Shown piece after piece: positions 2,852 through 7,008 of a stretch of DNA of 22,191 nt. Both the position numbers and the translations under genes were made by a program. The notes below the pieces were generated by a model. That model did no database searches. It had not been told where the DNA came from and saw nothing but the letters and a program-made list of their open reading frames with translations. Numbering within the stretch: position 1 is the stretch's first letter; every line of letters starts with the position of its first letter. Source of the DNA: a virus; the IMG/VR virus record IMGVR_UViG_3300042562_001547, positions 1-22,191 of that record, one strand, 5' to 3'.

Positions 2852-3109
2852 ATGATAGACAACAATCTCAGATATATAATATTTTTAATCGATAGCAAAA
2901 TGAAAGAACACGATGGTAAGATTTTCGCATCATATCAAGAAGCGAAGGAATTTGCTTCAGATATTATAGCCGATAAATTTGCAGACAAAGCAGTTATAGG
3001 AACTTTCTGTCTTGAGAATGTCAAAGAGATATTTATATCGCAAATCGAAACCATTGGATTTAATGGAGATAAAAAGAATGTTAACCAATTAAACTTATTT
3101 AGCCAATGA
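2852..3109 (+). CDS. Unknown small acidic protein
   Basis: This 85-residue protein starts 4 bases after the previous stop codon and overlaps the next gene by 4 bases (ATGA at 3106-3109), so it is part of a tight operon running from ERF to the glucosaminidase. It has an N-terminal hydrophobic strand or helix (NLRYIIFLIDSKM), a central helix and a polar C-terminus ending in NQLNLFSQ. The tail QLNLF loosely resembles beta-clamp binding peptides (consensus QLxLF), which would suit a DNA replication or repair partner. That resemblance is suggestive only. Confidence 0.55.
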   Translation: MIDNNLRYIIFLIDSKMKEHDGKIFASYQEAKEFASDIIADKFADKAVIGTFCLENVKEIFISQIETIGFNGDKKNVNQLNLFSQ

Positions 3110-3726
3110 AACACAAAATTAATATAACAAATGCTTTGCTGATTTTTGTAGGTATCTTTTTATTCCTGCAGTCGGGCCGATGGCTTTTTGAAAAGCAAGA
3201 GTATAAAACGCCGATCTTAACGACTCAATCAGAGCTGGTATCTGTACAGCCTAAACAGATGTCGTTCGTGCCGCAAATGGGCAAAAAAACGACGAATGCG
3301 GAGCAGTATATCAAAAGATTCAAATCGGTAGCAATGCAAGAGATGGAAAGATACGGAATACCTGCCAGTATCACGCTGGCGCAGGGAATTCTGGAGTCGA
3401 GATCTGGCAATAGCGAGCTATCTCGCAGATACAATAATCATTTCGGAATAAAATGCAGATCTGGATCTCAAAAATGCGTTAACTATGCAGACGACAAGCC
3501 GACCGACCAGTTCAGAGTATTTAAATCTGCGTGGTATAGCTACAGAGAGCATTCGATCCTCCTTTCCTCCTCATCCAGATACGCCTCGTTATTTAAGATA
3601 AAAAAGACTGACTATAAACGCTGGGCGATAGGACTGCAGAAAGGAGGATACGCAACATCGAAAAAATACGCCAGCTCTTTGATCAAAATTATTGAGAGAT
3701 ATAATCTGCAAAGATTTGATAAATAG
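3106..3726 (+). CDS. Membrane-anchored endo-beta-N-acetylglucosaminidase (GH73-like peptidoglycan hydrolase)
   Basis: This 206-residue protein has an N-terminal signal-anchor helix (residues 8-26) followed by a linker and a glucosaminidase domain of the FlgJ / Mannosyl-glycoprotein glucosaminidase type (about residues 65-202). The domain shows the family hallmarks: PASITLAQGILESRSG with the likely catalytic Glu97, then NNHFGIKC, VFKSAWYSYREHS, RWAIGLQKGGYATSKKYA and a C-terminal helix. It would cleave the glycan strands of peptidoglycan. The anchor suggests the enzyme is exported and acts from the membrane. Its place inside the early recombination and replication block, rather than beside the holin-like gene, is odd for a classic endolysin. 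A second, divergent member of the family lies at 5399. A promoter overlaps its 3' end (3715-3745). Confidence 0.88.
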   Translation: MKHKINITNALLIFVGIFLFLQSGRWLFEKQEYKTPILTTQSELVSVQPKQMSFVPQMGKKTTNAEQYIKRFKSVAMQEMERYGIPASITLAQGILESRSGNSELSRRYNNHFGIKCRSGSQKCVNYADDKPTDQFRVFKSAWYSYREHSILLSSSSRYASLFKIKKTDYKRWAIGLQKGGYATSKKYASSLIKIIERYNLQRFDK

Positions 3727-3745
3727 AAAAAATAAACTACTTTTG
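3715..3745 (+). promoter_or_regulatory. Bacteroidota-type promoter for the structured RNA and initiator gene
   Basis: TTTG (3715-3718), 19 bases, then TACTTTTG (3738-3745) fit the -33/-7 consensus TTTG-N19-TAnnTTTG exactly. Transcription would start near 3752, at the 5' foot of the first RNA hairpin. The -33 box lies inside the last codons of the glucosaminidase gene. Confidence 0.8.
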
Positions 3746-3751
3746 TATCGT

Positions 3752-3860
3752 TCTTTTTATCCCAGAGTCGTGGCTGAGATAAAAAGGATATTTTAAAACA
3801 CTTGCAACAAAACCGCATCTTTTTGGAGTTCACGACCTCTGAATAGAATGCGGTTTTTTA
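3752..3860 (+). ncRNA. Structured RNA with two kissing hairpins and a terminal terminator stem, upstream of the initiator gene
   Basis: Hairpin 1: CTTTTTATC (3753-3761) pairs with GATAAAAAG (3778-3786); an inner CAG/CTG (3763-3765 with 3774-3776) closes the 8-base loop AGTCGTGG (3766-3773). Hairpin 2: AAAACCGCAT (3809-3818) pairs with ATGCGGTTTT (3848-3857); an inner stem 3822-3828 with 3837-3843 closes the 8-base loop TTCACGAC (3829-3836). GTCGTG in loop 1 and CACGAC in loop 2 are perfectly complementary, which predicts a 6-bp kissing interaction. The outer stem of hairpin 2 ends in TTTTTT (3854-3859), so it also looks like an intrinsic terminator. A consensus promoter lies just upstream and the initiator ATG (3866) just downstream. 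It may be a free small RNA, a replication-control attenuator, or both. I cannot assign it to a known RNA family. Confidence 0.75.
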
Positions 3861-3865
3861 ATTAT

Positions 3866-4612
3866 ATGAAACCGATTAAAATGTTAACCAGCAGCAAATT
3901 TTTTGCCATCAATAAACTGATATTAAAAGAGTTCGGACTCGAGGCTGCAGTTCTCTTATCTGAGCTGGCGATGCTGCAGGAAAATTTCGATAATTACTTT
4001 TATAGAACGCAGGAGTCTCTGCAGGAGGAGACATCTCTCTCGCCGAAAGTACAGAAAAAAGCCGTCGATATCCTTAAAAGCAAAGGTATTTTATTAACAA
4101 AAAAATTTGGGATGCCTGCAAAACTGCATTATAAAATCGATGCCGAGATCCTCTCTCAGTATATACCTACGGACGAAACAAGTATAGCCGAAAAGGATAT
4201 ACAAGCAGCTCCAAAAATGCTAAACAAGAATAGCCGAAACGGAGATTCGTTAATAAAGAATATAAATAATAAAGAATTTATAAAAGATATTATATATAAA
4301 TATAATATTAGTATTTTAATGGAGCAAAAAGTCGAAACATATCTCCAATATCGAAAAGATATCAAAAAGCCTTTTAGATCAGAAAAAACAATCGAGACAA
4401 AAATAAAAGATTTATCGATTCAAGTTCAAAAATATGGAGAGCTGGCAGTAATAGAGAGTATTGATACAGCAATCGCAAACGGATGGATGGGAACGTTTAT
4501 CGACAAAAAATATTTAACCACAAATAAAAATTCTAATTATGAGCAATCTGGAAGTAAAAAACAGCAAGAAATTATCGGTTTTATCGCAAAAGTTACCGAC
4601 TTTGAACTATAG
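3866..4612 (+). CDS. Phage replication initiator (winged helix plus DnaD-like C-terminal domain)
   Basis: From the ATG at 3866 this is a 248-residue protein. An in-frame ATG at 3848 exists but lies inside the RNA terminator stem, so 3866 is preferred. Residues about 12-90 form a winged-helix-like domain (AINKLILKEFGLEAAVLLSE, then FYRTQESLQEETSLSPKVQ and a KSKGILLTKK wing). Residues about 100-145 are a polar linker. Residues about 150-213 resemble the C-terminal helical domain of DnaD-like and phage replisome-organiser proteins (VETYLQYRKDIKKPFRSE followed by ESIDTAIANGWMGTF). It would bind the origin and recruit the replicative helicase. The DNA that encodes the linker holds repeats and an AT-rich tract (4180-4320), an arrangement like the lambda O gene with its internal origin. 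The next gene overlaps it by 74 bases and may be its helicase-loader partner. Confidence 0.75.
   Translation: MKPIKMLTSSKFFAINKLILKEFGLEAAVLLSELAMLQENFDNYFYRTQESLQEETSLSPKVQKKAVDILKSKGILLTKKFGMPAKLHYKIDAEILSQYIPTDETSIAEKDIQAAPKMLNKNSRNGDSLIKNINNKEFIKDIIYKYNISILMEQKVETYLQYRKDIKKPFRSEKTIETKIKDLSIQVQKYGELAVIESIDTAIANGWMGTFIDKKYLTTNKNSNYEQSGSKKQQEIIGFIAKVTDFEL
4180..4320 (+). other. Origin-like cluster inside the initiator gene: repeats plus AT-rich tract
   Basis: Two related repeat units lie at 4180-4202 (AAGTATAGCCGAAAAGG...) and 4211-4242 (CCAAAAATGCTAAAC, 5 bases, TAGCCGAAACGG). They are followed by about 70 bases of almost pure A/T (4250-4320). The second unit aligns over 32 bases without gaps to 14168-14199 with 6 mismatches by eye, and the first unit matches 14160-14182 at 17 of 23 positions. 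Iterons followed by an AT-rich unwinding tract inside the initiator gene are typical of lambda-type phage origins. The function is inferred from this arrangement. Confidence 0.65.
4515..4524 (+). promoter_or_regulatory. Leader motif TAACCACAAA before the gene at 4539
   Basis: A perfect copy located inside the 3' end of the initiator coding sequence, ending 14 bases before the ATG at 4539. It supports that start despite the 74-base gene overlap. Confidence 0.6.
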
Positions 4613-5402
4613 CCAGCTCGGAGTAAAATATGAGAAAGCAAAAGTAGTAATCGAAGGATATTTATCTCCAATTCGTGATATTCCGAAAGAGCAGATTCCG
4701 AAAGCAGTAGGAGGTATTATATCAATATGCGCCACAATGTACTGCGGTATGCAATCAGAGCGAATGCTGGCTGAAACAATACAAGAGTCGGTTCGCTTTG
4801 TTTATAAAAATTACCCTCAGCTGGGCGTAAATGAAATTCGGGAGGCATTCTCTCTCGCAGCTGCAAACGTGTTTTCTGGTGTAAATATGACGGCTTTTTT
4901 CGGTACATTTACTATCTCGATGCTGGGAGATATTTTAACGGCTTATTCTGATTATCGAAATCCAATAATATCAAAAGCCTATGACCAGATAATTAAACTG
5001 GAGCAGGAAACAAAACAAGAGACAGAGAGAGGAGAGAAAAACGCACTCGCTTTGAATAAGATCCAGCAGGACATCGAGAGAGCAATTATCGCAGTACAAT
5101 CTGGAGAGGCGGATCTCTGGGAGAGCTGGCACGACGTTCCAGTCCATTACGCTGAGATAGCAGTACGTGAGCAATGGATCGAAGTATCGCCAGAGTTTAA
5201 AAAATCAATCTGGGAAGAGTCCAAAAAGTTAGCGCTCAGAGAGCTCGGAGAGATGGCTGCGGACCTATCGAACTTCTCGCAGGCAAAGCAAGCAAAAATA
5301 AAGCTAACGGACGCAATCGAAAAAAAGACTGTACCAGATGCGGCGCTCAGAATTTATTCGAAGCTCTTAATTTTTAAATACGTAAAAATGCACGAAGTAT
5401 GA
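4539..5402 (+). CDS. Replication accessory protein, possible helicase loader
   Basis: This 287-residue protein is mostly helical. It overlaps the initiator gene by 74 bases and ends in a 4-base ATGA overlap with the next gene. Residues 30-75 hold a conserved-looking helical segment with two Cys (ISICATMYCGM). Residues about 85-135 include FFGTFTISMLGDILTAYSDYR, a pattern I associate with proteins encoded next to replication initiators in Bacteroidota phages and plasmids. Residues 145-190 are a charged coiled-coil-like stretch. No Walker A motif is present, so it is not a DnaC-type AAA+ loader. A lambda P-like loader or other replisome adaptor fits the position directly after the initiator. 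The role is inferred from context. Confidence 0.6.
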   Translation: MSNLEVKNSKKLSVLSQKLPTLNYSQLGVKYEKAKVVIEGYLSPIRDIPKEQIPKAVGGIISICATMYCGMQSERMLAETIQESVRFVYKNYPQLGVNEIREAFSLAAANVFSGVNMTAFFGTFTISMLGDILTAYSDYRNPIISKAYDQIIKLEQETKQETERGEKNALALNKIQQDIERAIIAVQSGEADLWESWHDVPVHYAEIAVREQWIEVSPEFKKSIWEESKKLALRELGEMAADLSNFSQAKQAKIKLTDAIEKKTVPDAALRIYSKLLIFKYVKMHEV

Positions 5403-5848
5403 ACTGGATAATATTATGCATTTGGGCGTTTACTGCAGATCCAGATCGATCTCAAAAGGATTACATCCGCAGCAATCTGCTTGCGGCTAAAATAGGGCAA
5501 TTATTTTTCGGAATTCCTCCATCTATACAGTTCGCTCAAGCAATAACAGAGAGCGGAGGAGGGAGGAGCTATATATCTCGACATTCGAATAATCATTTCG
5601 GTATTAAGTATTATCCTGCAGAATTCGCAGGCCATCATTTTACTGATAGAGCAGGAGTCCGATGGAGATCGTATCCAAATATATTTATTGGATATCTGGA
5701 TCACGCTCTTTTTATCTGGCTGCATTACCGCAGTTTATGCTTTAAAGACTATCGGCAATTCGCAGGAGCAGGAGGATACGGAGCAGTAGGATACTGGCAA
5801 AATATAGTGCGATTTGCGCAATCAAAAAAATTATATCGATATGACTAA
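5399..5848 (+). CDS. Short secreted glucosaminidase-like protein (second GH73-type enzyme)
   Basis: This 149-residue protein has a short hydrophobic N-terminus (MNWIILCIWAFTADP) that may act as a signal peptide, then a compact glucosaminidase-like domain. PPSIQFAQAITESGGGRSYI carries the likely catalytic Glu51, NNHFGIKYYP follows, and a DHALFIWLHYR segment and a GAGGYGAVGYWQNIV segment match the family layout. It is shorter than the enzyme at 3106 and divergent from it, so the two are not a recent duplication. It sits in a tightly overlapping run of genes: 4 bases shared with the gene before and 8 with the gene after. It may cut peptidoglycan during entry or lysis. Why it sits among replication genes is unclear. 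Confidence 0.78.
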   Translation: MNWIILCIWAFTADPDRSQKDYIRSNLLAAKIGQLFFGIPPSIQFAQAITESGGGRSYISRHSNNHFGIKYYPAEFAGHHFTDRAGVRWRSYPNIFIGYLDHALFIWLHYRSLCFKDYRQFAGAGGYGAVGYWQNIVRFAQSKKLYRYD

Positions 5849-6927: not shown

Positions 6928-6959
6928 GTTTTTTATATTGATTTATTGCTATAATTTTG
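6928..6959 (+). promoter_or_regulatory. Early promoter, copy 2 (repeat of 1074)
   Basis: TAATTTTG (6952-6959) with an upstream GTTTTTT tract at 6928 has the same spacing as the copy at 1074. The 66-base block 6928-6993 runs from this tract through the leader motif. It drives the 7009-9137 group of genes. The stretch 6902-7008 holds no gene. Confidence 0.75.
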
Positions 6960-6986
6960 TGTAACAATTATCCGAAAGCATATCAA

Positions 6987-6996
6987 TAACCACAAA
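6987..6996 (+). promoter_or_regulatory. Leader motif TAACCACAAA before the gene at 7009
   Basis: A perfect copy, ending 12 bases before the ATG, and part of the block shared with the promoter region at 1074. Confidence 0.6.
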
Positions 6997-7008
6997 AAAA
7001 GCAATACT

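Follow-up and report, generated by a model that had tools for sequence, protein, structure and literature searches.

The two 8-nt hairpin loops that lie just upstream of a phage replication initiator gene are predicted to form a 7-bp loop-loop (kissing) helix, a pairing supported by comparison of 38 related viral sequences in which it is preserved pair by pair. The loop match is kept while its letters change in about 40 related, uncultured phages, and we therefore regard the element as a real, unnamed RNA family; it is a new one, supported by covariation and absent from Rfam 15. The analyzed DNA, hereafter the window, comprises the 22,191 bases of an IMG/VR virus record. Our preferred reading, to which we assign a probability of roughly 60%, is that the element constitutes a structured, terminator-containing 5' leader of the initiator gene, together with the short RNA that termination there produces. 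The RNA probably controls the timing or the amount of phage DNA copying.

The kissing hairpins and their covariation

The features of the locus are collected in Table 1. The MFE fold placed both hairpins and both loops where a preliminary description of the window, made from its letters, had placed them, except that hairpin 1 proved slightly longer. The RNA segment folds with z = −4.1 relative to dinucleotide shuffles, 1 of 200 shuffles being as good. Covariation was found at 11 of 11 hairpin 1 pairs in the family alignment, and the hairpin 2 stems covary too. All members possess a GC-rich hairpin 2 stem and a T-run, which lies within the alignment or immediately beyond it; this supports the terminator that had been proposed from the window. 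The usual loop layout in both hairpins is one unpaired 5' base plus a 7-nt block.

Table 1. Coordinates of the RNA, its promoter, and the neighboring genes in the window
Feature	Position	Strand	Basis or remark
Glucosaminidase (endolysin-like) ORF	3106-3726		Upstream neighbor of the RNA
Bacteroidota-type promoter, TTTG (3715-3718)-N19-TACTTTTG −7 box (3738-3745)	3715-3745	+	Sequence; box recurs in the family
Whole RNA, ~110 nt	3750-3859	+	Hairpin 1 through T-run, both included; fold and covariance-model match (3750-3858)
Hairpin 1	3750-3789	+	15 bp with one 1x1 mismatch; MFE fold and family covariation
Loop of hairpin 1, AGTCGTGG, 8 nt	3766-3773	+	MFE fold
Kissing block 1, GTCGTGG	3767-3773	+	Fold and family loop covariation
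Linker, unpaired	3790-3808	+	Model alignment
Hairpin 2, intrinsic terminator stem	3809-3857	+	Fold, covarying family stems, conserved T-run
Loop of hairpin 2, TTCACGAC, 8 nt	3829-3836	+	MFE fold
Kissing block 2, TCACGAC	3830-3836	+	Fold and family loop covariation
Terminator T-run	3854-3859	+	Sequence
Replication initiator (O-like) gene	3866-4612	+	PHROG 'replication initiation O-like', E 1e-16

Our covariance models (R1 from 10 sequences, R2 from 21, and R3 from 38) were built from secondary structure only, with the loop-loop pairing omitted. R1 recovered a group of sequences outside its training set at E values down to 1e-8, R2 added 18 matches, all in the expected strand, and the loop match is kept also in sequences outside the first training set. 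The resulting alignment, A8, comprises 38 matches (34 distinct) from related viral contigs, and at least seven complementary loop bases are present in every one of the 38. All 236 cells of the A8 kissing helix are standard pairs, and 48 of these are double-change cells; between 22 and 60% of cells were paired in slid controls. The covariation score of the kissing helix is 0.596, versus 0.03 to 0.14 in the slid controls. The kissing cells of the 21-sequence alignment are likewise all paired (133/133). Parsimony on a scaffold tree built without the loops counts ~32 pair-state changes (34 with one gapped member) and no mismatch. A8 contains fifteen different heptamer pairs and L158 supplies a sixteenth; the majority conform to GTNGNNN. 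The co-varying changes that we sought in both loops are thus present, on both sides at five of the seven kissing positions, and none of the 38 homologues breaks the loop match without compensation.

Two claims of the preliminary description need amendment. The complementarity that it saw between the loops stands, but its length of 6 bp does not, as the window has seven pairs when a terminal G.U is counted. Its judgment that the match is unlikely to be chance holds by way of the homologues, not from the window alone: a model-free scan (two hairpins, 7-nt complementary loops, and a T-run) found only this site in the window, yet ~4.6 chance matches are expected per 368 kb of one strand, so the window by itself is only mildly unusual and not decisive.

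The relatives were reached via the terminase and via the RuvC-like gene downstream (A6), and contigs found by either route have a comparable two-hairpin RNA in the corresponding location. The close relative L002, whose initiator is 84% identical, keeps both loops, and its sole loop difference converts the window's G.U to A.U. An exact loop pattern search of viral contigs returned 24 loci, the sole relative among them being L026, the same contig as L002. L095 and L158 contain more diverged copies, whose loops are complementary as judged from the printed match or the sequence. Two tandem kissing RNAs with different loop pairs are found in L003 (214-327 and 604-720), the first preceding a 65-aa ORF and the second preceding the initiator.

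Some relatives with a conserved resolvase-like gene, mostly fragments, gave no RNA match, and neither did the cultured phages 1/32, TCUEAP2, FpV9, vB_BfraS_NCTC, and AS73P1. A survey of 395 Bacteroidota genomes, with nine candidates scored in each, yielded two weak matches, neither with a second loop to kiss, and a DNA search of plasmids with the window RNA gave no match. The preliminary description could match the RNA to no named family, a claim upheld by Rfam 15 covariance searches with the window and 10 relatives, which returned no family at the gathering threshold; the best E value of a further Rfam comparison was 0.12, far below threshold. Literature searches, mainly of freely readable papers, found no described phage RNA of this kind.

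Initiator genes, promoter, and phages

The PHROG match supports the earlier proposal that the RNA stands in front of a replication initiator gene. The ATG of this gene lies six bases past the T-run (an alternative ATG in the ORF list, at 3848, is inside the terminator stem), and a start codon follows the RNA by ~3 to 25 nt in nearly all members. This recurrent position directly before initiator genes favors the reading of the RNA as a leader. A small ORF stands between the RNA and the initiator in L062, L065, L109, L099, L105, and L111 and behind the first copy in L003. Inspection by eye also revealed an HNH-like ORF between the two in L104 (3939-5443) and an intervening 95-aa ORF resembling the initiator N terminus in L097 (3439-4979). 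The initiators themselves are mosaics, in which HTH_36, O-like, or other N termini are combined with Phg_2220_C or other C termini, and the RNA precedes initiators of at least two C-terminal types. The RNA has thus been retained as the domains were exchanged. The genes upstream of the RNA run in the same direction, and initiator transcripts may also originate further upstream.

Several further observations concern this region. A second glucosaminidase-type lysin gene (5399-5848) and the upstream ORF listed in Table 1 bracket the initiator region. Within the initiator gene, at 4176-4246 of the window, two 25-nt iteron-like repeats, 88% identical and 46 nt apart, suggest a lambda-O-like origin inside the gene. 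We considered and rejected the RNA itself as the replication origin, given that there is no GC-skew turn nearby and that the iteron-like repeats sit in the initiator gene.

The promoter of the preliminary description was right in both spelling and position, and its box recurs upstream of the relatives. Of 32 distinct members, 21 have an exact TAnnTTTG in the 40 nt that precede the RNA, where chance would give 1.5; most of these boxes lie 9 to 12 nt ahead of the start of the RNA model. Flavobacterial −7 boxes occupy positions −12 to −5 (F. psychrophilum promoter maps, PMC9723704; PMC6847099); transcription is therefore predicted to start at ~3750, the first base of hairpin 1. On the reverse strand TAnnTTTG occurs in only 8 of 38 members and is not conserved, and an antisense RNA was rejected as a candidate. 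In L004 (918-968) and L079 (2925-2970), a conserved, hairpin-capable element, GGGTGCTC..ACTTAATTCGACTCGAA, lies directly upstream of the kissing RNA and occupies the place of the promoter box of other family members. Elsewhere in the window, a ~60-nt promoter-plus-leader, TTGCTATAATTTTGTGTAACAATTANCCGAAAG..TCAATAACCAC, occurs twice (1085-1150 and 6938-7008), its copies preceding different ORFs (1153 and 7009); a scan of ten relatives did not recover it.

The best matches of the terminase include Flavobacterium phage 1/32 and Elizabethkingia and Bacteroides phages. Together with the promoter type, these relatives point to Bacteroidota as the hosts that the phages probably infect. In L017/L018 the terminase match falls into two parts (residues 1-70 and 66-477) separated by ~1 kb, resembling a gene split by an insertion. 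The Phage_integrase and Resolvase families (integrase and serine recombinase) gave no match in 13 contigs, several of which are ~35 to 39 kb and which are possibly fragments, and searches of genome collections turned up no close prophage, one of them having been run without a positive control. A virulent lifestyle is probable, which makes a lysogenic immunity of the P4/P1 kind unlikely.

Proposed action and competing explanations

As a leader, the RNA would limit how much initiator is expressed, and its kissing loops would shape termination. Most transcripts from the promoter would end at the terminator, giving a stable ~110-nt RNA whose two ends lie in stems, and the initiator would be made only from read-through; we propose that the terminator thereby sets the initiator level. 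The kiss would form once loop 2 has emerged from the polymerase, at a point when the 3' arm of the terminator is still to be transcribed. When this arm was withheld in prefix folding, the best nested consensus pairing was the loop 1-loop 2 helix, a result that favors a co-transcriptional kiss shaping termination. A conserved pairing that competes with hairpin 2, as an antiterminator would, was absent from the prefix consensus folds, which argues that the element is not a classical two-state attenuator. The least certain steps are the timing and effect of the kiss, which could either speed or delay termination and would keep the product compact, and an action on other transcripts: with the two halves of the pair present on every molecule, RNAs released at the terminator could bind other nascent leaders, passing on gene dosage.

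The loops, as far as their sequences indicate, could act in cis, in trans, or both. The linker measures 19 to 28 nt in 37 of 38 members and 15 nt in the other, which has a shorter hairpin 1 (lengths from the model alignment), and its sequence is poorly conserved between groups. We estimate that a stacked helix of ~40 bp (hairpin 1, the 7-bp kiss, and hairpin 2) would extend ~110 Å and that an extended strand of 23 nt would reach ~130 Å, which fits a kiss within one molecule. The conserved linker length thus favors pairing within one molecule. The covarying loop pairs of GOLLD and ROOL proved to be intermolecular, a precedent from which it follows that covariation by itself cannot separate cis from trans (PMC12286853).

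These considerations bear directly on a rival reading that we hold as tentative and rather unlikely, in which one sense transcript with both kissing halves recognizes itself. Terminated copies would report genome number by kissing nascent leaders, loop 1 of either molecule pairing with loop 2 of the other, shutting down initiator synthesis as phage DNA rises, and the loop sequence would set interference in the manner of plasmid incompatibility. The ~16 loop pairs on one scaffold, many of them mutually incompatible at 7 bp, and the two copies with different loops in L003 speak for such recognition, as does the scarcity of G.U in the kiss, which occurs in 1 of 236 cells (the window itself) versus many in the stems. 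The first L003 copy and L062 also differ at 3 of 7 loop pairs versus 1 of 27 stem pairs (P = 0.02, uncorrected), but this is the exception among 11 contrasts, and the other 10 gave no higher rate of change for loops than for stems. Diversifying selection is thus not supported, and we rejected a faster evolution of loops than of stems as a sign of trans specificity. The narrow range of linker lengths suits pairing within one molecule, and a role in lysogenic immunity is unlikely in phages for which we found neither an integrase, in 13 contigs, nor a prophage.

We consider it improbable that the element is a stand-alone structural or regulatory small RNA whose target is a protein or a distant site and whose adjacency to the initiator is a mere address. 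A promoter box and a terminator of its own, both ends locked in stems, and retention through the domain swaps of the initiator would all agree with such a role, but the linker sequence is unconserved between groups, and the recurrent placement before initiators would go unexplained. Outside the RNA, the phage contigs contain 9 and 10 occurrences of the loop heptamers, versus 13.5 and 7.0 expected, and a second phage target for the loops was rejected on account of this lack of over-representation. A ring builder akin to the phi29 packaging RNA, multimerizing through its two complementary loops, would account for a complementarity that is kept in relatives; it is nevertheless highly improbable, since the RNA goes with the initiator and lies 8.6 kb away from the terminase, the phage has a typical large terminase, and the linker has a length that fits an intramolecular kiss. 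Chance, meaning an ordinary terminator beside an unrelated hairpin, could draw on the mild rarity of the motif in a single window, but it is refuted by the covariation across the family, and we give it a negligible probability.

Returning to the leader that we favor, the family sits at the replication switch of a phage group that is represented by no cultured phage tested. Control of initiator expression by RNA is a plasmid theme, which tailed phages would here employ, one strand carrying both kissing partners. The ~16 natural loop pairs provide a handle on a possible tuning of intrinsic terminators by loop-loop pairing, and they are a possible set of natural orthogonal parts. Should self-recognition be true, the loop sequence would split co-infecting phages into RNA incompatibility groups.

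Comparison with known systems

The phi29 prohead RNA and GOLLD/ROOL are, like this family, phage or phage-associated RNAs with kissing loops, but they differ from it in size, architecture, and genomic place; instead of the three-way junction by packaging genes of the phi29-type RNA, we find two hairpins before an initiator. The phage P4 CI RNA and the P1 c4 RNA are small RNAs encoded in the leaders of operons for replication or an antirepressor, and they are complementary to other parts of those leaders. The RNA described here is also small, leader-encoded, and complementary to parts of the leader, but its complementarity resides in two hairpin loops, one of them in an intrinsic terminator, it has no Rfam c4 match, and no lysogeny genes were found in its phages. 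The lambda oop RNA is a short, terminated RNA beside the O gene, transcribed opposite to O and antisense to cII; the family shares with it a short, terminated phage RNA beside a replication gene, here as a sense leader.

Loop-loop pairing tied to replication control is common to our RNA and to ColE1 RNAI/RNAII, R1 CopA/CopT, and the Inc RNA of the I-complex plasmids. The plasmid systems pair a sense RNA with an antisense RNA of the same DNA, whereas the phage RNA pairs a sense loop with a sense loop and is found in phages without a detected integrase. Loop helices of the ColE1 type are 7 bp long. In IncK, incompatibility is set by loop bases (PMC10724649). The closest working analogues are the plasmid initiator leaders under kissing RNAs, above all pT181. 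The repC transcription attenuator of this Staphylococcus plasmid employs a separate antisense RNA and antiterminator pairing, and its initiator-gene leader with an intrinsic terminator and its recognition by a loop-loop kiss are shared with the phage RNA (PMC4878617). The phage family differs in having neither a shared antisense promoter box (8 of 38) nor a conserved antiterminator pairing, and in carrying both complementary loops on one strand.
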